Shown: piece after piece, positions 16,983 to 33,373 of the stretch | Layout of the letters: every line of letters begins with the position of its first letter | Numbering within the stretch: the stretch's first letter is position 1 | Assembly: GCA_949285915.1 (NCBI GenBank) | Contig: CASDZW010000018.1 | Span: forward strand, 1-34,684 | Length of the DNA: 34,684 nucleotides | Origin: an uncultured Collinsella sp. | GTDB taxonomy: Bacteria > Actinomycetota > Coriobacteriia > Coriobacteriales > Coriobacteriaceae | Direction: 5' to 3' | Made by a program: the position numbers and the translations under genes | The notes under the pieces: generated by a model | Told to the model about the DNA's origin: nothing | The model's database searches: none | The model's input: the letters and a program-made list of their open reading frames with translations, nothing else

Positions 16983-18281
16983 CTATGCAACCGGCTCCAG
17001 CACAATGAGCGCATCCGCGCAGAAGGGGTGCTGCGCCACACGGGTTGCGCCGTCCGCGATCGTCACCGGCAGATGCGCGATGCGCTTCTGGGCGAGGTCG
17101 ATGGCGCGGGCCGCGTAGCCCTCGAGCGCCACACCGAGCTTGAGCGCCGTCGCGCGGGGCAGATAGGCCAAATACGTCGGGCGCTCCGCCTCGTTATGCG
17201 CGACGCGAATCTGCTCGCGGTCGTCTGCAAGCTCATCCTGCGCCGGCACAAGCGTGCGGCAGCCAAGCGCATCGAGCAGAGGCTCAATCATGCCAAAGTC
17301 CCACACACCTGGCAGCTGCAGGGCCTCCTGCCAGCGGAAAGGTGCGTCAAAGCCCTCGCCGAGGACCGATCCTTGACTCTGCGACGTCTGCCAGTTCCAG
17401 ATACCGTGGGCGCCGTAGGTCACGCCCGCGGTCGCGCCGGCGAGGATGCCCGCCCAAGCGGAGGCGCGGCAGTTCTCGTCGTTGAAGCGCACGTAGACGT
17501 GGCGGCTCGCGCCCATCATCTCGTAGCAGGGCTCGGAGTTGATAAGCGGCTTTTTGGGGTAGTTCGCGCGGAAGTCCTCCGGGAGCTTCCACGCCTCGTC
17601 CTGCGCGAGCGCATTGTGGCCGGGCTGGTACATGTAGAAGTCCAGGCGATCGACAAACTGCTCGGGGATGGTGCGGTTCGCACGGTTGATATGCATGGTG
17701 CGCAGGCGCGTGGGCGCAAGCTCGCACACAGTCGCGAGGGCCGCCTCATAGTAGGCAAGGCACTCGTCGGCCTTCCAATCCGTATCGCCCGTCACCACGT
17801 ACACGGGGTCAAACTCGTCGAGGTACTCGACCACGCGGCGCACATGGCGCTCCACCTCATCGAGCGGCATCGTCGAGGCGCCGGTACGCTCGGCAATCGC
17901 GGCGCCCCACGTACCGGGCACGTAGTTGCACCACATAAGCACGAGCGCCGGACGGATGCCGTGCTCGACCGCCATGCGGCACATCTCGCGAGCGCGCTCC
18001 CAGTATGCGAGGTTGGGCTGGCTCCAATCAAAAACGGTGCCGTCCTCGCTGGCGTACGGGTAGATGCCAAGATCCGGGCGGCAGCGGTCCCACTGCGGCA
18101 AGGTGTTGATCTGCAGTGTGTTGATGCCCTGCTCGGCGCGGCGGGCGAGGTAGTAATCCCAGTCCTCGAGCGTGATGCTCGTGAACGCGCTCCAGCAGGT
18201 GTCTGCCAGCCAGAACCAAGGCTTACCGTCGCAAAGGAACCCGTCGCCCTTTTCGTTTACCGTGAGCGTCCCCAAAGCCAT
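16983..18281 (-). CDS. GH140/DUF4038-like glycoside hydrolase (putative apiosidase-like)
   Basis: The GH140 family founder is an apiosidase acting on rhamnogalacturonan-II; DUF4038 proteins are its broad relatives. The 432 residues begin with the family motif KPWFWLADTCWSAFTSITLEDWDYYLARRAEQGIN (the 'fFwlgDT.W' start of the TIM barrel). They contain VVTGDTDWKAD with Asp166/Asp168, INSEPCYEMMG with Glu250/Glu254 as likely catalytic acids, and GVTYGAHGIWNWQ. The C-terminal ~80 residues look like the usual small beta domain. No signal peptide, so cytoplasmic, unlike many relatives. The ATG has an AGAGGAC site. It follows the PTS EIIBC gene by 127 bases with a hairpin between. The substrate is inferred from family only; other pentosides are possible. 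Confidence 0.8.
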   Translation of the reverse strand: MALGTLTVNEKGDGFLCDGKPWFWLADTCWSAFTSITLEDWDYYLARRAEQGINTLQINTLPQWDRCRPDLGIYPYASEDGTVFDWSQPNLAYWERAREMCRMAVEHGIRPALVLMWCNYVPGTWGAAIAERTGASTMPLDEVERHVRRVVEYLDEFDPVYVVTGDTDWKADECLAYYEAALATVCELAPTRLRTMHINRANRTIPEQFVDRLDFYMYQPGHNALAQDEAWKLPEDFRANYPKKPLINSEPCYEMMGASRHVYVRFNDENCRASAWAGILAGATAGVTYGAHGIWNWQTSQSQGSVLGEGFDAPFRWQEALQLPGVWDFGMIEPLLDALGCRTLVPAQDELADDREQIRVAHNEAERPTYLAYLPRATALKLGVALEGYAARAIDLAQKRIAHLPVTIADGATRVAQHPFCADALIVLEPVA

Positions 18282-18329
18282 GACGTCTGTCCTCTCTTGT
18301 CCTGAAGCACCGCGCTCGATACGAGCAAA

Positions 18330-18363
18330 CCGGGTGCACGGTCAGGACGACCCGCGCACCCGG
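18330..18363 (-). terminator. Hairpin between PTS EIIBC and GH140-like genes
   Basis: Perfect 8-bp arms CCGGGTGC (18330-18337) and GCACCCGG (18356-18363). On the minus strand it is followed by TTTG, so at most a partial terminator that could lower expression of the downstream hydrolase. Confidence 0.4.
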
Positions 18364-18408
18364 CAACTAACCTACAAGGGATATACCCGTGTGGAGTGTG
18401 GTGGTCGC

Positions 18409-19863
18409 TTACGCGCCGATGAGCTCGGCCTCGTCCTCGTCCTCCATCTCGGCCAGCTCCTCCTTGGTGAAGCCGGTGAGGAAGACCACGACGGCGGCGA
18501 TCACGAAGGACACGGCCATACCGATGACGGCAGCGATGACGTTCCACTGGCCGCCCTGCAGGTAGTTCAAGATGACCATGAAGTTGGAGGAACCGCCAGC
18601 CATGTAGTAGGTGACGCCGAGGATGCCGGAGAGCACTGCGCCGATGGCGCCGCCGATGAACATGCCGAGCATGGTGCGGCGGAAGCGCATAAGGATACCG
18701 AAGAGGGCGGGCTCGGTCACGCCACCGGCGATGGCGGAGATGACATAGCCGAGAGCGAGGCCCTTCTCGTCCTTATTCTTCATGCGCAGGAACGCACCGA
18801 AGGCGCAGCCCCACACCGCGGTCATGGCGCAGTTGGTGGAGACGAAGACGAACGGGTCGTAGCCGGCAGCGATAATCTGCACCTGGGCGATCATGATGAC
18901 GGGCATGTGCATACCGGCGACCACGAAGAGCTGCCAGAAGGCACCGAGGACGGCCATGACCAGGAAGATACCAATGCCACCGAGGTCAGCAAGGCCAAAG
19001 AGCGCGTTAGCAACGAGGTTACCGAGCTCGCCACCGATGGGGGCGAGGATGATGAGCGCGATAGGCACAACCACGATCATGGTGCAGAACGGGGTGAAGA
19101 CCGTGGAGAGCGTGTCAGGCATGATCTTCTTGAAGAACTTCTCCACGAAGTAGAGCACCGGGATGGTGAGGATGATCGGCAGCACCGTCTGGCTGTAGTT
19201 GGCCGCGGTAATCTGGATGCCGTAGACGCTCACGATGCCCGTCGGGTCGGCGGAAGCCGCGGAGACGATGCTCGGGGCGATCATAAGGCCGCCGGTGAGC
19301 ATGCCGAGGACCGGGCTTGCACCGATCTTCTTAGCGGCAGCGTAGCCGAGGTAGATGGGCAGGAAGTAGAACGTTGCCTCGTAGAGGGTGGTGTAGAAGA
19401 ACGTGTAGGTCGGATCGGTCTCCGAGATGACGTTCAGCAGCTGCGGGCCTAGGATGACCGCGAAGGTGCGGAACAGACCGCCGGCCATGAGCAGCGGGAT
19501 GAGCTGGGTCATGGAGCCGGACAGGTAGTCGAGGATGATGCCCGGAATCTGCTTGAGGGTGATCTTCTCCTTGGGCGCGTCGAGATTCTCGTCAACCGCG
19601 GCGCCACGCGTGACACCGGAGATGGCGACGAACTCGTCGAGCACCTTCGGCACGTTCTGACCGATGATGACCTGAAGCTGGGTGCCGGCAAACTGTGCAC
19701 CGAGCACGCCCCTGACCTTCTTGATCTTCTCGATGTCAGCGAGGTTGTTGTCCTTGAGCGTGAGACGCAGGCGCGTCATGCAGTTGGTTGCGGTCGTGAC
19801 GTTGGCCGCACCTCCTACGAGCTCAAGGACGTTTTCGGCGATTTGTCTGTTGTCAATTGCCAT
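18409..19863 (-). CDS. PTS EIIBC permease, beta-glucoside/sucrose family, no EIIA
   Basis: A membrane permease that phosphorylates its sugar on entry. The ATG at 19863 (MAIDNRQIAENVLEL) has GGGAGGGG upstream and is preferred to an upstream frame start. EIIB covers about 1-85, with TNCMTRLR and phospho-Cys28. EIIC covers about 105-465, with about ten helices, HMPVIMIAQVQ and AGGVTEPALFG. The end is a short acidic tail. No EIIA domain is present; the partner could be the EIIA of PtsG at 4.2-6.4 kb or one elsewhere. The upstream region has a GTTTAC palindrome and the TGAACG repeat. The GH140-like gene follows. Substrate unknown; the family takes sucrose, trehalose, beta-glucosides and similar small sugars. 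Confidence 0.9.
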   Translation of the reverse strand: MAIDNRQIAENVLELVGGAANVTTATNCMTRLRLTLKDNNLADIEKIKKVRGVLGAQFAGTQLQVIIGQNVPKVLDEFVAISGVTRGAAVDENLDAPKEKITLKQIPGIILDYLSGSMTQLIPLLMAGGLFRTFAVILGPQLLNVISETDPTYTFFYTTLYEATFYFLPIYLGYAAAKKIGASPVLGMLTGGLMIAPSIVSAASADPTGIVSVYGIQITAANYSQTVLPIILTIPVLYFVEKFFKKIMPDTLSTVFTPFCTMIVVVPIALIILAPIGGELGNLVANALFGLADLGGIGIFLVMAVLGAFWQLFVVAGMHMPVIMIAQVQIIAAGYDPFVFVSTNCAMTAVWGCAFGAFLRMKNKDEKGLALGYVISAIAGGVTEPALFGILMRFRRTMLGMFIGGAIGAVLSGILGVTYYMAGGSSNFMVILNYLQGGQWNVIAAVIGMAVSFVIAAVVVFLTGFTKEELAEMEDEDEAELIGA

Positions 19864-19922
19864 GGGGTCCCCTCCCATTGCCGTGACCAAGTTGCCGTCC
19901 TGTACATCTTGGTCGTTCCTAC

Positions 19923-19941: not shown

Positions 19942-19994
19942 AATGTTTATGTCATGTATAGTACGTGTCCCGCCCGCTTCCATAGGCTAGATGT

Positions 19995-20025
19995 CCGGTG
20001 AACGGTCGGAATTATCAGGTGAACG
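19995..20025. promoter_or_regulatory. TGAACG direct repeat, 21-bp period (PTS copy)
   Basis: TGAACG at 19999-20004 and 20020-20025, same orientation, 21 bp apart. CCGGTGAACGGT and GGAA are shared with the xfp copy at 15704-15737. It lies just upstream of the probable PTS promoter, as expected for an activator site. Confidence 0.5.
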
Positions 20026-20207: not shown

Positions 20208-20219
20208 TAAACATGTTTA
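20208..20219. promoter_or_regulatory. Palindromic operator at the esterase promoter
   Basis: TAAACATGTTTA is a perfect 12-bp palindrome directly after a TATACT -10 box and 25 bp before the esterase start codon. It shares GTTTA arms with the operator on the PTS side. Confidence 0.55.
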
Positions 20220-20243: not shown

Positions 20244-21596
20244 ATGGCAGAAACCGACCTCGCAACACTCACCTACAAAACGGTGACCAAGCTCGGCGAC
20301 TTTGGCCCCTGGATCTCAAAGCTCGTGCTCGAGCTGCCCGACGAGGTTGGAGTGAACGACGTCAGCCCTGCAACGTTTAACGTCTTCTGCGCCCGCCATG
20401 AGCGTACGGGAGCGGTCCTCATGCGCCGCGAGCGTGGCGCGGACCACGCTGCCCCCTCCATTGGCTACGTCCCGGTGCTGGCAGCCTATCCGTCAACCGA
20501 GGCGGGCGAGCGCCAGACCCGCGGATCGCACGTCGCGCTCGAGCTGCCCGAGACGCGCCTCACCAAGCACGTCGAAGGCGGTGTCATGGGCTCGCGCCTT
20601 ATTGAGAACCGCTTCCGCGTAACGCAAACGGTCGCCATCCCCGGCAGCACCGACCCCATCACGGGCATGGTCTTTAACTCCTGCGCGGGCGATATCTGCC
20701 TCGAACTCGATGGCTGGCATACTGCCGAGATGGCAGAGGCCGTCGAGGGCATCAAGATGGCATACGGCTACTTCGAGCCCGATTTCTCGCCGGCGTCGGC
20801 GGGCCCCTTTGCCCCCGCACGCGAGAAGCCCGAAAAGGCGGCGCTCATCATTTACCTGCACGGCGCGGGCGAGGGCAAGGGCGAGGGTCTTGAGGCCCAA
20901 GGCGGGCCTCTTACGCCCGAAGGCCCCGAGCGAGCCTACATCGGCAACCGTGTGACGGCGCTTTCCGGCAAAAAGATCCAGGGGTACTTCGACGGAGCCG
21001 CTTGGGTGCTTGTTCCCCAAAGTCCCACGTTCTGGATGGATAACGGCGTCGAGCAGCTCGGCCATAGCAACCAGAGCATCTACGTTCGCGCGCTCAAGGC
21101 GCTCATTGACGAGTTCATCGCGTGCCACGCCGACCGCATCGATACGTCGCGCATTATTGTTGGCGGCCTCTCCAACGGCGGCTTTATGACGCTGCGCATG
21201 TGCCGCGATTACCCCAGCTTCTTTGCGGCGGGACTCCCCTGCTGCGCGCCGTGGTACAACGCGACCGCTGAGGACGTCGAGCTTCTGGCCAAAACGCCCC
21301 TGTGGTTCACACACAGCAAGGGCGACGAGCTCGTCGACCCCACAGAGACGGTCCTTCCGCTCTACCGTGCGCTCGAGGACGCCGGCGCGACCGCGCATGT
21401 CACGTACTTCGACCATGTCGAGGACCTTACCGGTGTGTATCACGAGGCCGATGGCTCGCCCAAGAAGACGTTCAACCACGGCGTGTGGATCCACGTGTTC
21501 AACGACTTCTGCCGGACCGACATCGACGGCACGAACGTCATGATCGATCGCGAGCCCGTGGGCATGTGGGAGTGGGCGGCGCGCCAGCGGGCGTAA
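20244..21596 (+). CDS. Alpha/beta hydrolase, prolyl-oligopeptidase/CE1-like esterase
   Basis: Probably a carbohydrate or phenolic-ester esterase. The first ~180 residues form a beta-rich accessory domain, seen in some secreted peptidase/esterase relatives, and the rest is an alpha/beta hydrolase. Motifs: LIIYLHGAGEG (about 201-211, oxyanion region), nucleophile Ser310 in VGGLSNGGFMT, acid candidate Asp361 in THSKGDELVD, and His412 or His417 in FNHGVWIHVF. No signal peptide, so cytoplasmic. The ATG has GGAAGG upstream. The 450-residue protein is divergent from the PTS gene and followed by the Sde_0182-like gene on the same strand, with a strong hairpin between them. It could remove acetyl, feruloyl or similar groups from an imported glycoside; the exact ester is unknown. 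Confidence 0.75.
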   Translation: MAETDLATLTYKTVTKLGDFGPWISKLVLELPDEVGVNDVSPATFNVFCARHERTGAVLMRRERGADHAAPSIGYVPVLAAYPSTEAGERQTRGSHVALELPETRLTKHVEGGVMGSRLIENRFRVTQTVAIPGSTDPITGMVFNSCAGDICLELDGWHTAEMAEAVEGIKMAYGYFEPDFSPASAGPFAPAREKPEKAALIIYLHGAGEGKGEGLEAQGGPLTPEGPERAYIGNRVTALSGKKIQGYFDGAAWVLVPQSPTFWMDNGVEQLGHSNQSIYVRALKALIDEFIACHADRIDTSRIIVGGLSNGGFMTLRMCRDYPSFFAAGLPCCAPWYNATAEDVELLAKTPLWFTHSKGDELVDPTETVLPLYRALEDAGATAHVTYFDHVEDLTGVYHEADGSPKKTFNHGVWIHVFNDFCRTDIDGTNVMIDREPVGMWEWAARQRA

Positions 21597-21607: not shown

Positions 21608-21685
21608 GGGGGCGAGGCATATCCCCGAGCGCGTGGTCCTCGGCTTTGCCTGCGGGAAACGCGCTCGGGGATATGCCCCGCCCCC
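21608..21685 (+). terminator. Very long hairpin between esterase and hydrolase genes
   Basis: Arms of 26 bases (21608-21633 and 21660-21685) are complementary with a single mismatch and enclose 26 bases. The stem includes GCATATCCCCGAGCGCG and its complement. It follows the esterase stop by 12 bases; no T-run follows. It may terminate, protect the 3' end, or be a REP-like unit. Confidence 0.55.
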
Positions 21686-21739
21686 TACATGCACGTAACA
21701 CCCCTCCATGCACACAGACAAGAAGGAAGGATGCCGGTT

Positions 21740-23254
21740 ATGGCCAACGACGAGTTACCGCGGGTGATCATCACCACCGATCTTGAGGTGGACGATATGA
21801 ACTCGCTCATCCACTTGGCGCTGTATCTCAACCTGTTGGATGTGGAGGCCATTGTCACCACTGCCTCGCAGTACCACTTCCTGGGCGATGGCGAGCACAT
21901 GCTCGGCGAGGTCACGCCGCATTGGCGCACCAAGGGCATGCGCTCCTGCACGTGGAAGGTCGTTCCCCACGAGCCCGACCCCGAGGCAGGCTCGCTCACA
22001 AGCTACCGCCCCTTCCCGCGCACATGGGTCCAGGACCTTTGGACGCACGAGTACGCCCAAGCCTGGCCCTACCTCAGCGAGAACGCCGCGGCGGCGGGCG
22101 AGCCACCCTTCCCCACCCCCGAGCAGATGCTCGCGCGCACCTATGAGGGAAACATCGCCTTCGAGGGCGACATTCGCGCCGACACCGTCGGCTCCAACGT
22201 CATCAAGCAGGCCATACTCGACAACGACCCACGCACGCTCTGGCTTCTCTCTTGGGGCGGCATGAACACCATCGTGCGCGCCCTTATGTCGATCGCCGAG
22301 GATTACCAGGCAACCGACGCCTGGGACGACCTTCGCGAACGCATCTATGCGAAGGTCCGCGTACTGGGCGTCACCAACGGCATTGGACAGGACAACTCCT
22401 GGCTCGACCACGGGCGGGCGCTCTTTCCCGACCTTGTCTTTCTGCGCGTGCCCTTCATGTACGGCGGCTACGTGGACGCCGTGGCGGCGCAGCCCGACAG
22501 CATCGACCTCTTCCGCGCGCCCTGGCCGGAGGAACACCTCACGCAAAACAACGGCCCGCTCATGGCGCGCTACATGCTCTATGGCGACGGCAAGGTGTAC
22601 GAGAACGAGCCCGAGCGCTTCCAATTTGGTCGCCATGCGACGCTCGACTGGGGACTCGACGGCATGCAGCCCATCCACTTCACGCCCGGCGACTTCATGG
22701 CCGAGGGCGATTCGATGACCTACATTCCGCTCATCCCCTTTGGCCTGCGGGGCGCCACGGACCCAGGCTTCTCGACCGTACTGGGTCCGCTCTTTTGCGA
22801 TTGCGTCGAGGGCACTGGCGACGGTATGAGCTTTGCCGATCTCGGGCGCGCTCCAGAAGACAACCCCAACCCGTATCTGCGTGCCTACCAGGAGGACTTC
22901 GCCGCACGCGCCCAGTGGTGCGCGCATGAGCCCGCCGCATGCAACCATGCCCCCGTAATCGAGGGCGTCACGTCTGACATGGTCGCCGCGCCCGGCGAGA
23001 CCGTTGAGGTCGGCGCTTGGGTATCAGACCCCGACGGGGATATGCTCACCTGCCGCTGGGCGGTCGACACGCTTTCGAGCACCTATAGCGGGATGCACAA
23101 CCTGGCCTCGTGGCGCGCCGAGGGCGCAAACGCCCATTTCACGGTGCCCGCCGATGCCGCCCCGGGTGACCGCATCCCCCTCACCTTGCGTGTCCAAGAT
23201 GCCGCCAAGCGGCCCTGCACGCGCTACGCGCAGATTGCCGTAACCGTAGAATAA
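21740..23254 (+). CDS. Sde_0182-type nucleoside-hydrolase-like protein (DUF1593)
   Basis: Members of this family (DUF1593) have a nucleoside-hydrolase fold and are found in plant-polysaccharide loci; the reaction is not settled. Start taken at ATG 21740, 9 bases after AAGGAAGG; ATG 21731 in the same frame is possible. The 504 residues open with RVIITTDLEVDDMNSLIHLALY, where the Asp cluster parallels the DTDxxxDD Ca2+ motif of nucleoside hydrolases. LLSWGGMNTIVRALM lies further on. The C-terminal ~90 residues form an Ig-like domain (HAPVIEGVTSDMVAAPGETVEVGAWVSDPDGD), as in the family. No signal peptide. It probably cleaves an N- or O-glycosidic bond of the imported compound; this is inference. 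Confidence 0.82.
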   Translation: MANDELPRVIITTDLEVDDMNSLIHLALYLNLLDVEAIVTTASQYHFLGDGEHMLGEVTPHWRTKGMRSCTWKVVPHEPDPEAGSLTSYRPFPRTWVQDLWTHEYAQAWPYLSENAAAAGEPPFPTPEQMLARTYEGNIAFEGDIRADTVGSNVIKQAILDNDPRTLWLLSWGGMNTIVRALMSIAEDYQATDAWDDLRERIYAKVRVLGVTNGIGQDNSWLDHGRALFPDLVFLRVPFMYGGYVDAVAAQPDSIDLFRAPWPEEHLTQNNGPLMARYMLYGDGKVYENEPERFQFGRHATLDWGLDGMQPIHFTPGDFMAEGDSMTYIPLIPFGLRGATDPGFSTVLGPLFCDCVEGTGDGMSFADLGRAPEDNPNPYLRAYQEDFAARAQWCAHEPAACNHAPVIEGVTSDMVAAPGETVEVGAWVSDPDGDMLTCRWAVDTLSSTYSGMHNLASWRAEGANAHFTVPADAAPGDRIPLTLRVQDAAKRPCTRYAQIAVTVE

Positions 23255-23356: not shown

Positions 23357-24268
23357 TTACGCCTCTGCCAAGCGCTTGGCCTCCAGCACGGCGCCGTAGA
23401 TGTTGGCGTCGTTGCCGAGTTCCGCGCGCTTGATAACCGGGCGCGGGAAGCCGGGGAGCATGTGCTCGAGAGCCTTGTCCATCATGCGCTCGAACGCGTC
23501 GAAGAGCTCCGGATGGCAGCTGATGCCACCCGCGATGGCAAAGACCTCGGGGTCGAGCACGGCCTGCAGGTTGATGAGCCAGTTGTCAAAGGCGAGCGCG
23601 TACCGGTCGAGGCCGCGGATGGCCGCCTCGTCGCCTGCCTCGATCCACTTGAAGAAGATGCGGCCGTCGACCGATTTGTCCACCGGCTCGCCCTTTTCCT
23701 CAAAAATGCGCTCGCGCAGCGCCATCCAGCCCGCGGTCTGCGCGAACCACGTGCCCGGCGTCACAGGGTCGGCGGTGTTGTTGTTAAGGAAGCTGAACTC
23801 GCCCGCAAAGCAATGCGCGCCGCGCAGAGCCTTGCCGTCGATGACGATGCCGCCGGCGATACCGGTGCCGATGCCAATGGTCACGCCAAAGCGCGTGCCC
23901 TTGAGGGCGCCCGCGGCGTACTCGCCAAGACCGGCGCACTTACCGTCGTTGTTAACGGCCACGGGCATGCCAAAGCGCTCGCGCATGAGCTTGGCGAGCG
24001 GGCACTGGTCCATGTAGGTGAGGGCGCCGCCGCGGTGGATGGTGCCATCCGGATCGTCTTCCATGACAGAGCCGGGGACGCTCATGCCAATAGCCGCGAC
24101 CTGGTCGCGATACGGCTCAACGAGCGAAGCGAACGCCTCGACTGCCTCCTCGGCAGAGGAGAAGTCCGTCTTGATGGAGCCGCGGTCGCCGACGAAGTTG
24201 AAGTCCTCGTCCATGATGGCCCACTTGACCTCGGTGCCGCCTACGTCAATGCCAAAGTACTGCTTCAT
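23357..24268 (-). CDS. ROK-family sugar kinase
   Basis: ROK kinases phosphorylate hexoses with ATP in the cytoplasm. The 303 residues show the phosphate motif FGIDVGGTEVKWAIMD (Asp8, GGT 10-12), catalytic Asp108 in VAVNNDGKCAGLGEYAAGA, and GVTIGIGTGIAGGIVIDG. The typical ROK zinc motif (CxCGxxGCxE) is absent; the corresponding region reads GAHCFAGEFSFLNN, so it belongs to the zinc-free ROK group. The ATG has GAGGAG. It lies 211 bases after the rhamnosidase on the same strand. It could phosphorylate glucose or another hexose released inside the cell by the neighbouring glycosidases; specificity cannot be read from sequence. Confidence 0.88.
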   Translation of the reverse strand: MKQYFGIDVGGTEVKWAIMDEDFNFVGDRGSIKTDFSSAEEAVEAFASLVEPYRDQVAAIGMSVPGSVMEDDPDGTIHRGGALTYMDQCPLAKLMRERFGMPVAVNNDGKCAGLGEYAAGALKGTRFGVTIGIGTGIAGGIVIDGKALRGAHCFAGEFSFLNNNTADPVTPGTWFAQTAGWMALRERIFEEKGEPVDKSVDGRIFFKWIEAGDEAAIRGLDRYALAFDNWLINLQAVLDPEVFAIAGGISCHPELFDAFERMMDKALEHMLPGFPRPVIKRAELGNDANIYGAVLEAKRLAEA

Positions 24269-24479: not shown

Positions 24480-26741
24480 CTACGCAGCGCAACCGAAGCG
24501 ATGGGTGCCGCCGGAAACCGCGCACACCGTGCCATCGGGGAGCTCCACGTCGGCAGAGACGCCCTCGGGCACCGTGCACTCGAGGTCAAAGCGGCCGTTC
24601 TCGCAGCGCCAGAAGACCTCGATGCGCCCCTGCACCGACTCGAAGGCGCAGCGGGCCCACGTGATGCCCTCGCCCGGCTTGGGCGCGATACGCACGCGCG
24701 CATATCCCGGCGCCGCCGGCGAGATGCCGCCGATAACCTGGTAGATCCAGTCGCACACCGCACCAAGTGCATAGTGGTTGAAGCTCGTCATGTCGCCCGG
24801 GTTGATGGAGCCGTCCGGCAGCATCGAATCCCAGCGCTCCCACGTAGTGGTTGCACCCATGCGCACCGGGTAGAGCCAGCTGGGGCACTCGTCCTCCAAA
24901 AGCAGGCGGTACGCCTCCTCGGCGTGCCCGTTCTCAGAAAGCGCCCAGGTCACATACGGCGTGCCAGCAAAGCCGGTCGCAACCTTGTAGTTGCCCTCGC
25001 GCACAAGCTCGGCCAAGCGGTCGGCCGCAGGCGCCATCTCGTTACCCTCAAGCAGGCCAAAGTGAAGGGCCAGCGCATAAGCCGCAACGGCATCGGAGGT
25101 CAAGCGACCACCCTCGAGCACATACGTGCGACGGAACGCCGCGCGCGAGCGCTCTGCGAGCTCCTCCCAGTGCGCGCGGTCCTCGGCAAGGCCCAGAATC
25201 TCGGCCGTGTCAGCCGCGATGCGGGCACTGCGGCAGAGGCACGCCTGCGCAATGAAGTACTTGTCGGTCTTTCCGTCCATGGGAGCCTCGGGCGGAGCCG
25301 CCGGATCGAGCCAATCGCCGAGCTGCAGGCCAGTATTCCACAGGCCCGTATCAGAGAGGCGCTCTTCCACGGCGCGCAGATGCATCCCCATGGCGGGATA
25401 CTGCGCGACAAGCGCGTCCTTGTCGCCATAGACCTGCCAGAGCGTCCAGGGCACCCAGCAGCACGCATCGCCCCAAAGCGCCAGCTCACCCACCGTCTTC
25501 CAGAAGTGGTCGCTGTACTTGACCACATCGGGCGCCACCACGGGTACGCAGGAGAGCGCGTTGCGCGCGGTCTCGGCCATGAGGGTTTCGAGCCAGTCGC
25601 CCAAAAACGCCGAGCAGTCGTACTGGAAGGCTGCCGTGGGCGCAAAGACCGCGATGTCACCCGTCCAGCCCATGCGCTCGTCGCGCTGCGGACAGTCGGT
25701 GGGGATGCTCACAAAGTTGTCGCTCTGGCTCCAAAGCGTGTTCGAGACAAGCTTGTTCACGTCGTCGTTCGAGCACGAGAACCAGCCTGTGCGCGGCAGG
25801 TCGGAGCTGATGGCCACGGCCTCGATATCGTCCGCGCTAAGCTCGCCCGGCCAACCCGTGACCTCGGCATAGCGGAATCCGTGGAAGGTCAGCGTGGGCT
25901 CAAAGACGTCCTCACCGCCCGAGAGAATAAAGGTGTCGGTCGCCTTGGCAGCGCGCAAGGGACGCGTACCCAGCTCCTCATGCTCAAGCACCTCGGCATG
26001 GCGCACAACGACCTCGGTGCCGCGCGGGCCCGAGATACGCACGCGCACCCAACCCACGATGTTCTGGCCAAAGTCCACAAGCGTCTTGCCCGCGGGGCTC
26101 TGCCAGATGCGCACCGGACGAAGCGTCTCGGTCCGGCGCACGGGCGGCATCGTTTGGGCATAGAGCGTCGCGTGGTCAAAGGCGACCTCGCGCACCTCAA
26201 GCGGATGCTCGGCGGGGTCGATGCGCGCGTCGATGGTCTCGCCGTTGTAGAGGGAGTTCTCGGTAATCGGCGTCGCGCAAGCGTGAGCCGTGCCATCGGC
26301 GGCGGTCACCGCAACCTGGCGCGAGCCGTCGGCGTAGACAATCTCCAGCGCACCGATAAAGCCGAGCTCCTCGCCGTAATCAATCTTCATAAGGTCGAAG
26401 CCGAGCTCGCCGCGCCACCAGCCATTACCAAGCAAAACCTCGATCTTTGCCGCGCGACCACCCGCGCGCACAAGGTCGGTGACGTCTGCCTCCTGCACAG
26501 CAAGGCGCCACTCGTATGCCGTCCAACCGGGGTTCAGCACCGCGTCGTCCACCGAGACGCCGTTCACGCGCGCCTCGTAGATGCCGTGCGCCGTCGCCAC
26601 TAGGCGCGCCGATGTCACCGCGCTGACCGGTCCCTCAAGCTCAACATCGCAGGTCAACGCTATTGCCTGGCCACGCGTGGCCTCCGCCCCAATCATGTGC
26701 GCACCGGCCAGGAGCTCTACCGCAGAAATTGTGTCCGTCAT
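24480..26741 (-). CDS. GH78 alpha-L-rhamnosidase
   Basis: It releases terminal L-rhamnose from glycosides by inversion. ATG 26741 (MTDTISAVELLAG) has GGGGAGGG upstream; the longer frame to 26807 lacks support. The 753 residues follow the family plan: N-terminal beta domains with ATAHGIYEARVNGVSV and LLGNGWWRGELG, DFGQNIVGWVRVR, FEPTLTFHGFRYAEVTGWP, then the (alpha/alpha)6 barrel with the catalytic-region motif TDCPQRDERMGWTGD (about 348-362). The end has WERWDSMLPDGSINPGDMTSFNHYALGAV and a C-terminal beta domain. No signal peptide, so cytoplasmic. Likely substrates are rhamnosylated plant glycosides (flavonoids, saponins) or pectin-derived oligosaccharides. No rhamnose-catabolic genes (rhaA/B/D) are in the window. 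Confidence 0.93.
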   Translation of the reverse strand: MTDTISAVELLAGAHMIGAEATRGQAIALTCDVELEGPVSAVTSARLVATAHGIYEARVNGVSVDDAVLNPGWTAYEWRLAVQEADVTDLVRAGGRAAKIEVLLGNGWWRGELGFDLMKIDYGEELGFIGALEIVYADGSRQVAVTAADGTAHACATPITENSLYNGETIDARIDPAEHPLEVREVAFDHATLYAQTMPPVRRTETLRPVRIWQSPAGKTLVDFGQNIVGWVRVRISGPRGTEVVVRHAEVLEHEELGTRPLRAAKATDTFILSGGEDVFEPTLTFHGFRYAEVTGWPGELSADDIEAVAISSDLPRTGWFSCSNDDVNKLVSNTLWSQSDNFVSIPTDCPQRDERMGWTGDIAVFAPTAAFQYDCSAFLGDWLETLMAETARNALSCVPVVAPDVVKYSDHFWKTVGELALWGDACCWVPWTLWQVYGDKDALVAQYPAMGMHLRAVEERLSDTGLWNTGLQLGDWLDPAAPPEAPMDGKTDKYFIAQACLCRSARIAADTAEILGLAEDRAHWEELAERSRAAFRRTYVLEGGRLTSDAVAAYALALHFGLLEGNEMAPAADRLAELVREGNYKVATGFAGTPYVTWALSENGHAEEAYRLLLEDECPSWLYPVRMGATTTWERWDSMLPDGSINPGDMTSFNHYALGAVCDWIYQVIGGISPAAPGYARVRIAPKPGEGITWARCAFESVQGRIEVFWRCENGRFDLECTVPEGVSADVELPDGTVCAVSGGTHRFGCAA

Positions 26742-27027: not shown

Positions 27028-28566
27028 TTATGCAGTCTTGTCGACCGCCTTGATATGCAGCAGCATGTACTGGCGGCTCGGCAGATCCACGCGCACCTGA
27101 CCCTCGTAGGTGCCCGGCAGGGTCTCAACCGTCATGTTCCACGTGTCCACCACGTCGATCGTGTAGGTCTTGCCCTCGGGCAGGGTGAGGTCGCGGTACG
27201 CCGGGCGGAAGAAGCCAAAGTACATGACCACGTCGTCGGTGCCCTCGCTCCAGTCGTTGGCCATGCAGGCAATATCCCAGTTCATGGTACCCAGACAGAA
27301 CCCGCGGCCGTACGGAACGAGGTCCATGTCCTCCGGCAGGCTCTCCATGAACTGACGGCAAAACGCGATGCGCTCCAGGCTCTCACCGTAGAGCTTGCCG
27401 CCGTGCGCCCACCAGATCTTGGGACCGCGGTCCACATAGGTCTCGCCGTGGGTGACGTATCCGCCGCGGAGACACCCCTCCCAGAAACGGCGCGTCTCCT
27501 CCTGGGCGGTCAGGTTGCCCCAGCCCCAGGTGACGTTGCCCTCGTAGCCAACCTCGTCCACCAGCACCGGCTTGCCGTAGGCGGCGCGCAGCTCCGTCAC
27601 GCACTCGGCGGTGCGCTGCAGGTCGCAGCGCTGCCAGCTCACATGCGTGATCCACGGGTGGCTGTGGTCAAAGAGCGTACGGCAGTTGTGGATGCTCCGC
27701 AAATGGCCGTACGGGTCGTTTGCCATAACGATGCGCGCGTACTGGTCCAAATCCTCGACCGGCTTCCACGGCATGAGGTCAAACTCGTTCGCGAGGCTCC
27801 ACCAGATGTTCTTGTAGGCGCTGTAGCGGCGCGCAACGTACGACAGATAGAAGGCATCCTCGTCGCGGGTCATCTTGGAGAAGCCCCACTCGGGCTTGTC
27901 GTAGGGGTGGAGCAGGATGATATCTGCCTGGATGCCGAGCTCATCCAGCTGAGCGATGCGGTGGTCGAGGTTCTCCCAGAACGGCTCATAGAAGCGCGTG
28001 TGGTCAAAGCCCTCCTCGATCGAGCCCTCGTATGCATACATCGCGGGGTTCTCGAGGTTGTAATCGTAGAACTTGGGGAAGATGCACATGCGAATCTTGT
28101 TAAAGGGCGCGTGGGCGAGCGTCTCGAGCGTCTGCTCCTGGCACTCCGGCTCCTGGTTGGTCCAAGCGTAGGCGGTGGTGCCAAAGGGCATAAAGCGCGT
28201 GCCGTCCTCGTAGGAGAACGTGTGGTCGCCGTGGGTGTCAAAGGGCGTGCCGCCGTGCTTGACGTCGCGGGTCAGAAGGACGCGGCCGTGGTTGCCCTCG
28301 CTTGCGGGCGTGACCTCGACCTCGCCGGTGATGCCGGCAAGCGCAGGGTCGCTCGACGCGGTGCGGTAAGTCCACGTGCCGGCGGAGCGCGGCATAAAGC
28401 GGATGCCGTAGCGCCCCTTCCCACGGTAGAAACCGCGGACCTCGACGGCGTCGGTGCCGTCGGCGCGCTCAAACGTCGCCGTCAGCGTAATGTCCACGTA
28501 GGGATTCCCCTCCGCCGTGCCCTCGAGCACGAGGTCGAGCACGCGATACTGCTCAACGGTCTGCAT
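27028..28566 (-). CDS. DUF5060/DUF5605 glycoside hydrolase, clan GH-A-like
   Basis: A putative exo-acting glycosidase of unknown specificity. The 512 residues start with a DUF5060 beta domain (about 5-90: DLVLEGTAEGNPYVDITLTATFER, FYRGKGRYGIRFMPRSAGTWTYRTAS). A TIM-barrel follows (TRFMPFGTTAYAWTNQ, then IRMCIFPKFYDYN). The likely acid/base is Glu261 in WWSLANEFDLM and the nucleophile Glu338 in PVLVDEVGYEGN, the spacing and strand ends of clan GH-A. The C-terminal beta domain with YRDLTLPEGKTYTIDVVDTWN fits DUF5605. No signal peptide. ATG has AGAGGAG. Downstream of PTS EIIC with a small frame and hairpins between. Related to the protein at 30245-31870 in layout but clearly different in sequence. 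Confidence 0.82.
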   Translation of the reverse strand: MQTVEQYRVLDLVLEGTAEGNPYVDITLTATFERADGTDAVEVRGFYRGKGRYGIRFMPRSAGTWTYRTASSDPALAGITGEVEVTPASEGNHGRVLLTRDVKHGGTPFDTHGDHTFSYEDGTRFMPFGTTAYAWTNQEPECQEQTLETLAHAPFNKIRMCIFPKFYDYNLENPAMYAYEGSIEEGFDHTRFYEPFWENLDHRIAQLDELGIQADIILLHPYDKPEWGFSKMTRDEDAFYLSYVARRYSAYKNIWWSLANEFDLMPWKPVEDLDQYARIVMANDPYGHLRSIHNCRTLFDHSHPWITHVSWQRCDLQRTAECVTELRAAYGKPVLVDEVGYEGNVTWGWGNLTAQEETRRFWEGCLRGGYVTHGETYVDRGPKIWWAHGGKLYGESLERIAFCRQFMESLPEDMDLVPYGRGFCLGTMNWDIACMANDWSEGTDDVVMYFGFFRPAYRDLTLPEGKTYTIDVVDTWNMTVETLPGTYEGQVRVDLPSRQYMLLHIKAVDKTA

Positions 28567-28649: not shown

Positions 28650-28760
28650 TTACTTGACCTTCTTCACCATCATAATGAAGACGACGCCGGCGAGAACGAG
28701 CGCGATCGCGACCGGGAAGGTCAGGAAAGAAGTAGAGTCGACCCAGAAGATCGACTCTAC
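28650..28760 (-). pseudogene. Small membrane-protein frame lacking a start codon
   Basis: On the minus strand the frame reads VESIFWVDSTSFLTFPVAIA, then LVLAGVVFIMMVKKVK and stop (TAA 28652-28650). One hydrophobic helix with a Lys-rich end, a good C-terminal membrane-anchor pattern, and C/G-rich third positions. No ATG, GTG or TTG stands at its front: a TAG lies 5 codons before GTA 28760. A GTA that was GTG would give a 36-residue protein. It could be a damaged gene or start at an unusual codon. Family unknown. It sits right after PTS EIIC and before the DUF5060 enzyme, both on the same strand. Confidence 0.4.
28732..28760 (-). repeat. 10-bp perfect hairpin at the small ORF start
   Basis: GTAGAGTCGA (28732-28741) and TCGACTCTAC (28751-28760) with a 9-base loop. 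It covers the front of the start-less small frame. Confidence 0.55.
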
Positions 28761-28875: not shown

Positions 28876-30156
28876 TTACGCCTCGGCAGCCTTCGCAGCG
28901 CGCGCCTCTGCCTCATCCTTCAGCGCCTTCTTGTCTGCAATGCGGACGAAGGGGATGAACAGCAGGGCGATAGCGAGAATGGAGGCGACTACGATAAGCA
29001 CCAGACCGATGCCACCTGTGAAGAAGTTGCTGATGGGCAGGGGCACCACGAAAGGCATGGAGATGGTGGGGTTAAAGGCATTGCCAAGGCCCAGATAGAA
29101 GCCAACGAAGGCGCACAGCCACGCCACCGGCTTGAGCAGGATGTAGGGGATGAACATATAGGGGTTCATCGCGATCGGGGTACCGAACATGATGGGCTCG
29201 GAGATGTTAAAGATAGCGGGCACGAGCGCGATGCGGGAGAGGGCCTTGAGGCTCTCGGACTTTCCGGTAAGCAGCGCCAGCTCCATACCAAGGGCGTCGG
29301 ACGAACCGATAGCCATCAGGATAGAGAACTGCAGGTACGGCATCGGATCACCAGCGAGGAACGCCTCGGTGTTGGCAAGGCCGCAGGCGGCCATCACGGG
29401 CATGTAGACGCTCATAAGGACGCTGGGGTGGATACCGAAGAAGAACAGCGCGTTGCACAGGGTGAAGTAGATGAGCACTGCCGCAGGCGAAGAACCAAGG
29501 CCCATGACAGGCGTGGAGATAATGGCGTTGACCGCAGTGTAGATATCGCCCCATGCAGTGAACGTCATACCCCACTTAAGCAGCGTGAAGCTCGTGAAGA
29601 TAACAATGGCGCACAGCATCGGCGACAGCGAGTTGGACACGAACGGCGGCACGCTATCGGGCAGCGGCACGGCAATGTGCTTCATGAGGAAGTGGAGCAG
29701 CGCGGGGACTACGAGCGCAACCACGAGGGCAACGAACAGGCCGTTGCTGCCCATATAGGTCGTGGGGATGAAGGTCATACCGTCCTCGGTGCGGCCAAGC
29801 GGAATGAGCAGAAGAGCGACACCGATGGAAGCCACCACGGAAGCCATGCCCTTGTTACCGAGCACCTCGCCGAACGAATGAGAAACCGAAGCGCACATGT
29901 AGAGCGCGCCCAAGTTCATGGTCACCACAAGCACATCGTTGATGACAGAGGCAAGCCCCGTGCTGTTTAGGAAATCCTGCAGCGGCGGGATGGGCAGGCC
30001 GACCAAAATGGAGAGCAGCGCCACGCCCAGGGTCACGGGCATGGTGGACATCATGCCCGCCATGAGGCCTTGAACTACCTTAAACGAAGAGAATTTCTGG
30101 GCAACAGGGCCGACGTACTTTTCTAGAAAGCCCTGTATGGTGTTGAGGATGCCCAC
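28876..30156 (-). CDS. PTS EIIC, lactose/cellobiose family, stand-alone
   Basis: The membrane channel subunit of a PTS permease. GTG at 30156 (VGILNTIQGFLEKYVGPVAQKF) is taken as start, with AAAGGA 11 bases upstream; the longer frame to 30456 overlaps the neighbouring gene and is implausible. The 426 residues contain about eight to ten helices and the family signature ISEPIMFGTPIAMNP in the C-terminal half (NxxEPIxFGxPxxxNP). FFFGIHPSVLMSVYMPV is also typical. The tail is Ala/Glu-rich. Neither the separate EIIB nor EIIA (or a phospho-glycosidase of GH1/GH4) normally found with this type is nearby; subunits would have to come from elsewhere. Its neighbours suggest a plant oligosaccharide. Confidence 0.88.
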   Translation of the reverse strand: MGILNTIQGFLEKYVGPVAQKFSSFKVVQGLMAGMMSTMPVTLGVALLSILVGLPIPPLQDFLNSTGLASVINDVLVVTMNLGALYMCASVSHSFGEVLGNKGMASVVASIGVALLLIPLGRTEDGMTFIPTTYMGSNGLFVALVVALVVPALLHFLMKHIAVPLPDSVPPFVSNSLSPMLCAIVIFTSFTLLKWGMTFTAWGDIYTAVNAIISTPVMGLGSSPAAVLIYFTLCNALFFFGIHPSVLMSVYMPVMAACGLANTEAFLAGDPMPYLQFSILMAIGSSDALGMELALLTGKSESLKALSRIALVPAIFNISEPIMFGTPIAMNPYMFIPYILLKPVAWLCAFVGFYLGLGNAFNPTISMPFVVPLPISNFFTGGIGLVLIVVASILAIALLFIPFVRIADKKALKDEAEARAAKAAEA

Positions 30157-30244: not shown

Positions 30245-31870
30245 CTACACGCGCTCGAGCACCACGAGCCAATCCCCCAAATTCGGCTTCGCGGGAAGCG
30301 TGAGGGTGCCCTCTTGGGCGCGAACCTCCTCTCCTTCTGCGTAGGTGCCCTCGCGCGGATCAAACCACCGCGCCCGGTAGACAGCGGCATCGTCGATGCC
30401 GTCGATCTTGAGTGAGCGCCGCGCCGTGTCGCCGTAGTAGGCAACGATGCGCGCACGGTCGGCCGTCGCCGTAGCGAGCGGCGCCTTGTTGGCGAAGAGA
30501 TTGCCCCCGTCGCCCACGGTCACAGGTGCGAGCTCCCAGAAGTGCACGTCCTCGTAGAAGCGACGCATGTATCCCATCTGCGTGGCGCCGGGTGCATCTA
30601 CGGCCTCGACCCACGTGACGTTGAAGCGGTTGAAGATGGCAAAGAAGGGGTTCATCTCCTTTACCTTCTCCCACACGTTGTCCCAAATGCCTTGGGCACC
30701 GTAGGTGAAACCGGCGCCACCAAGCTGGATGGACATATACGCCACACGGCGCAGCAAATCCGCCGTGCACAGACGCGTGCCCATCTCCTCGAGCGTGGAG
30801 CACAGCTCGTACATAGCCTCGCCCTCGACGAAGGGCTTGCCCGGGTGCTTTGCGAAGAAGTCCGCATAGTCCTCTGCCGTGATTAGATAGTCACCGTGCC
30901 CTGCCTGGTTTAAGGTGAAGTCAAACCAGGACTCGTTTTGGTAGTAGTCCGGGAAGGGGCGCTCGTTGGTGTAGTGCGCCGTCTGAAGCGTGCCGTAGCC
31001 ATCTCGACGCTCAATCTCGAGCGCCACCTCACGCCAACGATCAACATGACGCTGGTGAACCTCGGGCGTCAGGTCGTACCCGGCCGTCTCGCCCGCGAGC
31101 GTCCAGACCATGGGCAGCGCGCCATAGCGCGCCAGGATATAACGAGCAAGATGCTTCTGATGCTCGATGCCACCCTCTCGATTGATAGCAAAGCACCACG
31201 CCTGCCCCAGCGCGTTTACCAAGCCGGCATCCGCGATATAGGCCATGCGGCGGTCCAGCTCGTTCTGGTAAAACGCAACATTGGGAAGATCGCGCTCGCC
31301 GTTCTCACCGGGATGCTCGCCTTCCACCCAGAAGTGGTTCACCCCCGGCCCCATGTCGGAGCGCAAGTTGGTTTGGTAGACGGTATAACCCTGCGCCACG
31401 CGCTTATCGACCATGCCACGGAACTGGCTCTGCATGCCGGGGTGATTGGATTCATCCCAGCGCTCGCCCCACGAAGCCTCCCAGTGCGTATCTCCCAACC
31501 AGAAAAACGGCGTACCGTCCGCATGCTCGAAATACCGACCGTCGGCGGACACTTTAAGAAAACCATGCTGGTAGATGGCGAGTTCTCCTTCGTAAGGTAC
31601 TGCCTCAAGCACGCCGGTACAGCCGTCGAGCCCCGTCGCCTCGGGCGCCTCAAGCGCGTATGTCCACACACCGGTCTCGGTGGGGGCAAACGACACACGC
31701 CACACATTGCCGCCGTCCCAATAGGCTTCGCGACGAATGACACGTCCCGAGGGCGCCGTGAATGCAGCCCAGATCTCCACATCCAAAAACGGATTGTCAT
31801 ACGTGCCCGCCGCCTCAAACGTGAGGATGCCAGCGCGCCATAACTCAAAGGCAGGCGTTGCTTCGCTCAT
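30245..31870 (-). CDS. DUF5060-DUF4038 glycoside hydrolase (GH140-like)
   Basis: Putative intracellular glycosidase related to the apiosidase family. The 541 residues have an N-terminal DUF5060 domain (about 5-95: ELWRAGILTFEAAGTYDNPFLDVEIWAAFT, VWRVSFAPTETGVWTYALEA). The DUF4038 barrel starts at GTPFFWLGDTHWEASWGERW (about 119-138). Likely catalytic acids are Glu261 in MVWTLAGETAGYD and Glu349/Glu351 in KPFVEGEAMYELC. AGFTYGAQGIWDN parallels GVTYGAHGIWNW in the protein at 16983-18281, so the two share the barrel but only this one has the DUF5060 domain. No signal peptide. ATG has AAAGGAG. It lies 30 bases after the alpha/beta hydrolase gene and 88 before PTS EIIC, a probable operon. Confidence 0.85.
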   Translation of the reverse strand: MSEATPAFELWRAGILTFEAAGTYDNPFLDVEIWAAFTAPSGRVIRREAYWDGGNVWRVSFAPTETGVWTYALEAPEATGLDGCTGVLEAVPYEGELAIYQHGFLKVSADGRYFEHADGTPFFWLGDTHWEASWGERWDESNHPGMQSQFRGMVDKRVAQGYTVYQTNLRSDMGPGVNHFWVEGEHPGENGERDLPNVAFYQNELDRRMAYIADAGLVNALGQAWCFAINREGGIEHQKHLARYILARYGALPMVWTLAGETAGYDLTPEVHQRHVDRWREVALEIERRDGYGTLQTAHYTNERPFPDYYQNESWFDFTLNQAGHGDYLITAEDYADFFAKHPGKPFVEGEAMYELCSTLEEMGTRLCTADLLRRVAYMSIQLGGAGFTYGAQGIWDNVWEKVKEMNPFFAIFNRFNVTWVEAVDAPGATQMGYMRRFYEDVHFWELAPVTVGDGGNLFANKAPLATATADRARIVAYYGDTARRSLKIDGIDDAAVYRARWFDPREGTYAEGEEVRAQEGTLTLPAKPNLGDWLVVLERV

Positions 31871-31900
31871 GGAATACTCCTTTCTAGGGCAAAAGGCCCT

Positions 31901-33373
31901 CTATTCAAGCCCCGCGCGGCGTGCATGGGCAACCGCAAGGTCAACGAGCAGGGGTGCGTCTTCTTGGCAAAGGAAGCCTTGGCTCACCAGCTGCGCGGTG
32001 TCGTCCTCGCACAGCTCGCGGTAATGGGCGAGCGTGCCGTACAACTCGGAGAGCATCGCAGCGGAGAAGGTCTCCTGGTGCCCAAAAAGCCCATCCGTAT
32101 CGGCGGTTTTGTCCACCGTGCCCGACCCAGGCACCACGCGACTCGTGTTGGAATAACGCGCTACGGGGTGCTCGAGCAGACACGTGCGGAGACCCCCCTT
32201 GGAATTGCCGAACGCGTCCTTCACGTTCTCGCCGTGACAGTCCACCGGAATCCGCGAACAGGACGCAGGCGCCGCACCGGTGCGCACCCAGCGGAAGAGG
32301 TTGCGAAACGCTGCATGGAACAGCAGCTGCGAGGGGTAGTCGTTGGGCTCGTCGTGAAGCCCGGTGTAAACAGGCAGGTGATTGATGCGCTTAAGGTCGG
32401 GGTCGTTTTGGTAGTAGTCCAAATAACTCCACTTGGTGTCGTGGCTCGCACCGGTCACCTCGTAGAGCCGATACTTGAAATCAGACCGATCGCTGTCGGG
32501 CAGCATGCAGCGCCACGATTCGAAGCGCCCGTTCTCGCTCTCCGTTTGCACCGCGATGAACGGTTCGCCGCAGCGCTCGACGCGGCGGAGCTCCGGTGCA
32601 TAGGCGCGGGCACTCTCATACTGATTCACGGGAATCACCATAGAATGAATGCCGCCGCCCGAGAGGTAGCCGTCAAACACCCGCGACCCACGCGCCACGT
32701 CCTCGCGGTAGGCAAAGCTGTTGAGATAGCGGAAGAGATAGGCGCCGGACTGCGACCATCCCGTGAGGCACAGGCAGTCGCGACGATAGGTGACAAGCGG
32801 ATTATCTGCGTCATCGGAGCGCAGCTTCCAGGCAAGATCGGTGAGCATGTCCCAAAAGAGACCGGGCTCGTAGGTGATGTCGATGTCGGGCAGAGCGCCT
32901 CCGCGCACGAGCTCAGCAGGGTCGAACAGAAACGGCGTTTCCGGCGTGGGGTTCGCCCACGAGAGCGCCGCATACCGGCGCGTATCAAACTCGACAAGCT
33001 TTGGAATGGTGTTGGGCTTGCTGGTGATTCCAACGTAGATATCGCCCGAACGCAGGAACTCCCCATGACCCAAGATCCACATGCGCTCGATTTCCATAAA
33101 CGAAGTGGGATTGATGATCTCCACCACCACGTTGCCGCTTGCCTGCTCAGGATCGATGGGAGCGCGCACGACGATACGATTCACATACGGCGCCTCTGGA
33201 GTGAGCACCTCGACCGCACCGGCATCGTTGATGGAACGATACACGTTCGCCGTTCCGCGCACATAGTACTCGCGCTCCACGTATCCGCGAGCGGAAAGAT
33301 GACAGTAACGCTCCGCACTGGAAAACGGATACGAATTCGATGTGACGGGAATCTCGTTGATGGCACTGATCAT
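31901..33373 (-). CDS. Alpha/beta hydrolase, ABhydrolase_10-type esterase
   Basis: Probably an esterase. ATG 33373 (MISAINEIPVTSNSYPF) is preferred because CGGAG lies 5 bases upstream; two in-frame upstream ATGs (33388, 33457) are weaker. The 490 residues have an N-terminal beta-rich part (VNRIVVRAPIDPEQASGNVVVEIINPTS), the nucleophile Ser207 in CLTGWSQSGAYLFRY, a GGGIHSMV segment and VTGASHDTKW that may hold the His. No signal peptide. It heads the minus-strand run of GH140-like enzyme and PTS EIIC genes and is divergent from LacI regulator 2, with a palindrome between. It would be a second esterase in the locus, unrelated in sequence to the one at 20244-21596. Substrate not readable. Confidence 0.75.
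   Translation of the reverse strand: MISAINEIPVTSNSYPFSSAERYCHLSARGYVEREYYVRGTANVYRSINDAGAVEVLTPEAPYVNRIVVRAPIDPEQASGNVVVEIINPTSFMEIERMWILGHGEFLRSGDIYVGITSKPNTIPKLVEFDTRRYAALSWANPTPETPFLFDPAELVRGGALPDIDITYEPGLFWDMLTDLAWKLRSDDADNPLVTYRRDCLCLTGWSQSGAYLFRYLNSFAYREDVARGSRVFDGYLSGGGIHSMVIPVNQYESARAYAPELRRVERCGEPFIAVQTESENGRFESWRCMLPDSDRSDFKYRLYEVTGASHDTKWSYLDYYQNDPDLKRINHLPVYTGLHDEPNDYPSQLLFHAAFRNLFRWVRTGAAPASCSRIPVDCHGENVKDAFGNSKGGLRTCLLEHPVARYSNTSRVVPGSGTVDKTADTDGLFGHQETFSAAMLSELYGTLAHYRELCEDDTAQLVSQGFLCQEDAPLLVDLAVAHARRAGLE

Follow-up and report, generated by a model that had tools for sequence, protein, structure and literature searches.

The systems closest to the locus described here are those of the glycoside hydrolase family 140 (GH140) apiosidase BT_1012 of Bacteroides thetaiotaomicron (PDB 3kzs/5msy, 8t9w), which has a role in rhamnogalacturonan II (RG-II), and the D-apiose catabolic clusters of enterobacteria. 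According to PMC13001218, the Escherichia coli D-apiose cluster consists of aplK, aptA and aptB, and three E. coli carriers and one E. fergusonii carrier grew on D-apiose; the same paper describes the E. coli cluster as being without the isomerase gene apsI, and credits Carter 2018 with having also shown that gut Bacteroides and Clostridia use apiose. Part of the Clostridia gene set considered below may already have been described in Carter 2018. The present locus lies on contig CASDZW010000018.1 (C18), the whole of which (34,684 bases) is the window analysed here, in a metagenome-assembled genome of an uncultured Collinsella sp. (1.88 Mb in 43 contigs, 82% complete). It probably represents an inducible island for small plant apiosides, which would be imported through the phosphotransferase system (PTS) and broken down inside the cell.

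Domain assignment with Pfam and NCBIfam profiles identified three proteins exceeding the PF13204 cut-off of 26.5 bits, and these are the only PF13204 proteins in the 82% complete assembly, all within the island. Api1 (16983..18281, minus strand; PF13204 1.9e-73, 248 bits) is a candidate cytoplasmic GH140-like apiosidase, and Api3 (30245..31870, minus strand; PF13204 1e-64, 220 bits) consists of an additional N-terminal DUF5060 domain relative to BT_1012, an apiosidase domain and a C-terminal domain. The top PDB sequence match of both is 8t9w, deposited as an apiosidase (E 1e-27 for Api3), with BT_1012 next. The third protein (27028..28566, minus strand; PF18310, PF16586 and a weak PF13204 match of 7.5e-16, 59 bits) is a DUF5060-TIM barrel-DUF5605 glycosidase candidate that is closer to PDB 4n0r (‘putative glycoside hydrolase’, E 3.5e-106) and is, on sequence grounds, a different subtype and not a close GH140. 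The catalytic pair proposed for BT_1012 is Asp187/Glu284, the first site being Glu in 17% of PF13204 members (PMC4032388). The PF13204 domain is common to BT_1012 and the island enzymes and the catalytic carboxylates are retained, as Asp166/Glu250 in Api1 (invariant in 35/35 aligned sequences) and Glu261/Glu351 in Api3 (76/76), while Glu261/Glu338 of the DUF5605 protein, positions assigned by motif and not by alignment to BT_1012, are found in 8/8 aligned sequences.

A preliminary description of the window had listed three enzymes of one GH140/DUF5060 class, a GH78 rhamnosidase, an Sde0182-type hydrolase, a pair of unrelated esterases, a ROK kinase, two PTS permeases and two LacI regulators; it noted no signal peptide on any of the enzymes, and neither an ABC (ATP-binding cassette) sugar transporter nor a SusCD pair. 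The inventory is borne out, with coordinates at or near those given there, and needs amendment: the three PF13204 proteins represent three different subtypes, and the two PTS genes do not encode full permeases, the second being EIIC only and EIIA being present in neither. None of the island enzymes possesses an N-terminal hydrophobic stretch, their highest 14-residue Kyte-Doolittle mean (a simple hydrophobicity measure, distinct from a signal-peptide predictor) being at most 1.69 compared to 3.34 for a membrane-anchored control in the window, in agreement with the claimed absence of signal peptides. Likewise, no ABC transporter or SusCD domains were found among the window proteins scanned (part of the open reading frames), nor do these include the SusC/SusD pair and secreted enzymes of a Bacteroidetes-type polysaccharide utilisation locus. 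The island thus differs from the BT_1012 system in its lack of signal peptides and SusCD and in its adjoining PTS genes.

The first of these PTS genes (18409..19863, minus strand, likely start 19863; PF00367 and PF02378) encodes an EIIBC without an EIIA domain, nearest the beta-glucoside type (TIGR01995 best), and the second (28876..30156, minus strand, likely start 30156; PF02378) an EIIC nearest the lactose/cellobiose type (TIGR00359/TIGR00410 best) with no adjacent EIIB or EIIA; for both, the best NCBIfam subfamily match falls under its curated cut-off. The EIIBC gene adjoins Api1 in all 19 family loci. EIIA must act in trans in the window's species, and a separate, complete EIICBA in the window (4233-6392; 4233-7327 including a BglG-type antiterminator) is a possible donor; elsewhere in the genome there are seven EIIB-family matches, six of them above cut-off. 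Among relatives, a free EIIA is encoded in L032 (PF00358) and in four loci with related proteins, and an EIIC-EIIB-EIIA set sits between Api3 and the isomerase gene in three C. aerofaciens loci and in G006. The EIIBC type is shared with aryl-beta-glucoside systems that couple a PTS to a GH1 6-phospho-beta-glucosidase (bgl/asc type), which some Clostridia loci resemble in their PRD-type antiterminator-like gene, EIIA and GH1; unlike these systems, the island adds apiosidases and esterases, and GH1 lies outside the window.

Further evidence comes from relatives, in which the apiosidase genes are accompanied by genes for an isomerase of the L-fucose/L-arabinose family, a split transketolase (N and C parts, TKN and TKC) and an FGGY kinase. 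The preliminary description had named a lack of co-occurrence in other genomes as a finding that would speak against it; when 65 genomes of the family were searched, 19 contained PF13204 and 19 the isomerase, with both in 18 and neither in 45 (Fisher's exact test, 7e-14, a value that ignores relatedness, the genomes not being independent). The two exceptions are the window's own genome (PF13204 only) and G016 (isomerase only). In 14 of the 18 genomes a single contig carries both Api1 and the isomerase, no more than about 33 kb apart; G015, G037, G049 and G054 have them on separate contigs. Across the Api3 loci surveyed below, a recurring order starts with LacI, the PF20091 esterase and Api3 and continues through PTS and isomerase genes to TKN, TKC and the FGGY kinase, with Api1 and GH1 coming next in some. 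In loci with an isomerase of at least 60% identity, the isomerase-TKN-TKC-kinase series is complete in 18 of 20, the other two running off contig ends.

A survey of loci, for which genome contigs were scanned with Api3 (79 loci obtained, the best 80 of 104 relatives being kept), included 52 in which Api3 is at least 50% identical. Of these, 39 contain the esterase, 24 a PTS gene, 17 Api1 and 16 the isomerase. At least one catabolic gene is present in 20, and in 16 of those it is accompanied by a PTS gene. GH1 is present in 10 of the 52, and adjoins Api1 or Api3 in several Clostridia/Erysipelotrichaceae loci; the window's genome has 14 GH1 matches, representing about eleven enzymes, one of which shares 75% identity with a GH1 encoded in an Api3 locus. 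Two close relatives indicate where the catabolic genes would be expected in the window's species, which we infer to possess them. The island proteins that G051 has in common with the window show 95-100% identity; in this genome, kinase, TKC, TKN and isomerase genes come after the DUF5605 gene, and the LacI2-PF20091-Api3-EIIC block, a separable module, was not found. In G054, TKC and kinase genes lie just past the second LacI gene, the stop codon of the kinase falling about 70 bp beyond the point at which the window's contig ends. The preliminary description thus had no view of the catabolic genes (isomerase, split transketolase and kinase), which in relatives are located immediately past that point. 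The G054 contig, CASELS010000001.1 (uncultured Collinsella), is the nearest named relative among the fetched loci (97.5% identity over 6.0 kb and 93.2% over 6.2 kb). Of note, L022, labelled uncultured Slackia, encodes Api3 and PF20091 proteins that are 100% (rounded) identical to those of the window; this label is probably wrong.

The D-apiose clusters on Rahnella and Sodalis plasmids share 78-79% identity in aptA with E. coli SE15, whose cluster, the gene reference of PMC13001218, served for the aptA/aptB/aplK comparison. An L-fucose/L-arabinose-family isomerase, presumably ApsI, an aptB and a kinase lie alongside. As in the relatives of the island, isomerase, split transketolase and FGGY kinase genes adjoin one another, and the island isomerase shares the same broad family; in contrast to the island, with its PTS and glycosidases, the enterobacterial clusters adjoin a ribose-type ABC transporter and contain no apiosidase in the stretches read. 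Identities to the E. coli SE15 proteins are 42-46% for AptA, 33-39% for AptB and 35-41% for AplK, and span 33-46% overall for the island, Listeria and Monoglobus kinases and transketolases. A transketolase tree unites the island TKN with AptA and sets them apart from the second split transketolase of the window's genome (support 96/92, long branches). A PDB sequence search with the island isomerase returned nothing up to E 1. The kinase carries Ser/Ser at positions 247/271 (E. coli GlpK numbering) in all 29 island rows (28 distinct) and in AplK, as do the kinases of Listeria, Monoglobus and Clostridium zeae, whereas GlpK and the other kinase of the window's genome have Gln/Phe; we take Gln247, Phe271 and position 136 of GlpK to be residues of the glycerol site. 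NCBIfam and PDB matches name the kinase a glycerol kinase, an assignment that we are inclined, short of proof, to reject given the differences at positions 247/271.

The island encodes LacI regulator 1 (15783..16832, minus strand; PF00356, PF13377) and LacI regulator 2 (33578..34567, plus strand, the contig ending 117 bp beyond). Between the divergent PTS and EstA genes lies an operator candidate, the 12-bp palindrome TAAACATGTTTA (20208..20219), with a single exact copy in the assembled genome and an expected frequency from base composition of about 0.01 copies per 2.2 Mb. It is present in 7/7 cluster-positive and 0/3 cluster-negative genomes, from which a reversed control pattern is absent, and stands at the PTS/EstA promoter in all 11 family genomes mapped (L135 with only the EstA side in the stretch, G056 without EstA). 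Furthermore, another copy lies some 90 bp upstream of the isomerase gene in G056, so that both operons of this genome carry one site type. A perfect palindrome in the phosphoketolase promoter, TAAAACGTTTTA (15638..15649), is also a LacI-type operator candidate, and genus relatives have resembling AAACGTTT-type sites ahead of the isomerase gene. A direct repeat with a 21-bp period, CGTTCA-N15-CGTTCA, occurs on the minus strand upstream of the phosphoketolase gene (15708..15734) and of the PTS gene (19999..20025). It was rejected as an island-specific operator, as each of 10 family genomes, of which three are cluster-negative, contains between 2 and 8 copies of CGTTYA-N15-CGTTYA (reversed control, one match over the 10 genomes), and it may be the site of a global regulator.

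Besides the PF13204 proteins, the island encodes two esterase candidates, one EstA-like, with Ig-like and alpha/beta-hydrolase domains (20244..21596, plus strand; PF18435, PF02230), and one, Abh10, an alpha/beta-hydrolase of PF20091 (Abhydrolase_10; 31901..33373, minus strand, likely start 33373) with a GWSQS-type motif of which all five residues are invariant across 34 aligned relatives; a PDB sequence search with the latter gave nothing up to E 1. The Sde0182-type (Sde182_NH-like) nucleoside-hydrolase-like protein (21740..23254, plus strand, likely start 21740; PF07632 1.6e-34, PF21027) might, speculatively, have a role in furanoside binding or cleavage. In the family regions mapped (the window and ten genomes, some cut by contig ends), EstA is present in 10/11 and Sde0182 in 8/11. 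A long terminator-like inverted repeat, gaggcatatccccgagcgcg...cgcgctcggggatatgcc, was spotted by eye between these two genes (21612-21690).

The GH78 alpha-L-rhamnosidase (24480..26741, minus strand, likely start 26741; PF17389 4.4e-115 and three partner domains) and the ROK sugar kinase (23357..24268, minus strand; PF00480) form, together with the DUF5605 gene, a patchy accessory block. All three were found in the six genus-level genomes mapped, and DUF5605 and ROK also in G056; none was found in the stretches of G004, G006, G007 and G029, and L045 has a ROK at 55%. The rhamnose isomerase RhaA was found in G056 and in none of the other four genomes searched, i.e., the window's genome (82% complete), G051 and G006 (both 99%) and G054 (89%). 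Rhamnose, which the preliminary description had treated as a metabolised sugar, was therefore rejected as the consumed sugar, with the caveat that two of these genomes are incomplete; with RhaA found in one of five, the usual route is probably not the fate of released rhamnose.

The observations behind the following scheme are the gene content, the conservation of catalytic residues, the co-occurrence and contiguity of the genes in relatives, and a common palindrome, whereas each substrate and each reaction in it is a prediction. One or both PTS permeases would import an apiosyl glycoside with phosphorylation of its hexose (glucose), and we infer that this phosphorylation precedes hydrolysis. 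Cytoplasmic esterases would then strip acyl groups, Api1 and/or Api3 would free apiose, and the remaining phospho-glucoside would be split by GH1 enzymes encoded elsewhere (one of about eleven). Apiose would be converted to apulose by the isomerase and phosphorylated by the kinase, after which the split transketolase would convert phosphorylated apulose and glyceraldehyde 3-phosphate (G3P) to xylulose 5-phosphate (Xu5P) and dihydroxyacetone phosphate (DHAP); the conversion of apulose-4-phosphate and G3P to DHAP and Xu5P is established chemistry. The phosphoketolase encoded next to the island (xylulose-5-P/fructose-6-P; 13012..15564, minus strand; PF09364/PF03894/PF09363) would yield acetyl phosphate from Xu5P and give back G3P. 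The interpretation given in the preliminary description is partly supported, namely in the intracellular, PTS-linked handling of an apiose glycoside, the involvement of esterases, a link to phosphoketolase and co-occurrence in other genomes. The phosphoketolase gene is also near Api1 in G051, G050, G049, G004, L065 (Olsenella) and L067. It is possible, at somewhat below an even chance, that the apiosidases constitute a new class acting intracellularly on PTS-phosphorylated (6-phospho) apiosyl-glucosides, coupled to a closed G3P shunt from apiose to DHAP and acetyl phosphate, with the Listeria system discussed below being the same.

A number of observations weigh against an apioside island. The catabolic genes were not found in the window's own assembly (82% complete), in which the isomerase has no match and the best kinase match, at 40%, has GlpK pocket residues. 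Among the 52 more similar loci, 32 have no apiose-catabolism gene and 28 no PTS gene in the DNA fetched, and the 27 less similar loci contain the isomerase in four cases and a PTS gene in none; some of the 32 are short and some have ABC-transporter-looking genes, and such loci may rely on a different mode of import or be directed at a different sugar. EIIA is missing from both PTS proteins and EIIB from the second, the palindrome was not found in five Olsenella/Atopobiaceae-like loci holding the PTS gene (L043, L048, L050, L065, L067), and the keeping of GH78 is unexplained given the absence of RhaA. Identities to the enterobacterial enzymes are modest (isomerase 25-28%, transketolases 33-46%, kinases 34-43%), and at 47-49% identity, Rhizobium transketolases of unassigned role equal or exceed the island proteins in their closeness to AptA, which shows that similarity of this order is not unique to apiose genes. 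At kinase position 136, 26 island rows have Tyr, as does GlpK, and three have Phe, against Leu in AplK; in a kinase tree, E. coli AplK branches outside a clade that unites the island kinases with GlpK. Both results temper the rejection of a glycerol kinase. Alternatively, the isomerase-transketolase-kinase set might serve a different furanose or branched ketose and the PF13204 enzymes might have drifted to another glycoside, as the modest identities, the kinase tree, the Glu of Api3 where BT_1012 has its catalytic Asp, and the weak resemblance between the isomerase and sulfoquinovose isomerase (108 bits against a cut-off of 700) could indicate. This explanation is nonetheless improbable, as the apiosidase homology, the isomerase/transketolase/kinase set itself and the two of three kinase pocket positions that differ from GlpK fit apiose.

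Rather improbable, too, is that the island serves the intracellular finishing of pectin oligosaccharides (RG-II/RG-I) scavenged from other gut bacteria, with apiose and rhamnose being trimmed. PTS permeases mostly carry mono- and small oligosaccharides, no uronic-acid enzyme was found among the window proteins scanned, and glucosides are indicated by the beta-glucoside-like EIIBC together with a GH1 that falls in the 6-phospho-beta-glucosidase subfamily. In favour of this reading, some of the surveyed loci encode GH78 and a GH106-like protein, and BT_1012 is co-localised with an alpha-rhamnosidase (PMC4032388). The coming and going of blocks, with LacI2-Abh10-Api3-EIIC missing in G051 and GH78-DUF5605-ROK patchy, might suggest a chance grouping of unrelated sugar genes in a variable region, a very improbable origin that is contradicted by co-occurrence, contiguity and the common palindrome.

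Gene sets resembling that of the proposed apioside island occur in other organisms. A Listeria monocytogenes record (L198, 4004-13086) encodes, in one run, a LacI regulator, an isomerase, two transketolases, a ‘glycerol kinase’, a PTS beta-glucoside IIBCA and a DUF4038 protein, its isomerase being 64% identical to that of Olsenella and its DUF4038 protein 42% to Api1. By gene order, we take this operon to be lmo1030-1036. The tag assignment matches gene descriptions in PMC2996996 and PMC8079631, and PMC3091722 refers to an operon for glycerol metabolism, with lmo1031 possibly acting on fucose, whose deletion modestly affects intracellular replication. Its gene content suggests an apioside operon, which differs from the island in its compactness, fused EIIA and published name as a glycerol or fucose operon. 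A Lactobacillus jensenii ‘glycan utilisation’ cluster resembles the island type in its alpha-rhamnosidase, DUF4038, DUF5060, fucose-isomerase-like, alpha/beta hydrolase and GH1 genes; it differs in its major facilitator superfamily (MFS) transporters, no PTS being named and DUF4038 being likened to amylases, not apiosidases, in PMC10711310. For an L. fermentum DUF4038 gene, the neighbours listed in an incomplete gene table do not include this gene set.

Regarding the remainder of the window, relatives possess a segment of about 2.3 kb (L135, 8932-11206), encoding an MFS transporter and a TetR regulator, that the window is without, the junction being at 28726/28727, between the EIIC and DUF5605 genes. 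The protein encoded at 9924-11057 resembles choloylglycine hydrolase and has a hydrophobic anchor at its N terminus, and Rfam and tRNA scans of the window gave no matches.

Apiosidases and D-apiose catabolism are known kinds, and the PTS-fed cytoplasmic arrangement looks like an undescribed variant of them: no description of a PTS-fed apioside system was found among the titles and abstract openings listed in capped searches of open-licence literature, nor any publication there assigning PTS-linked uptake and intracellular cleavage of apiosides to gut Actinobacteria or Firmicutes. Judging from gene content, PTS feeding with cytoplasmic apiosidases would extend to Clostridia, Erysipelotrichaceae and Listeria. 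Plant foods and herbal medicines contain apiosides, among them apiin, liquiritin apioside and platycosides. If the proposed role is correct, it would provide functions for PF20091, DUF5060/DUF5605 and GlpK-like genes, which are now named by weak similarity, and a substrate hypothesis for the Listeria operon, for which a mutant is published.

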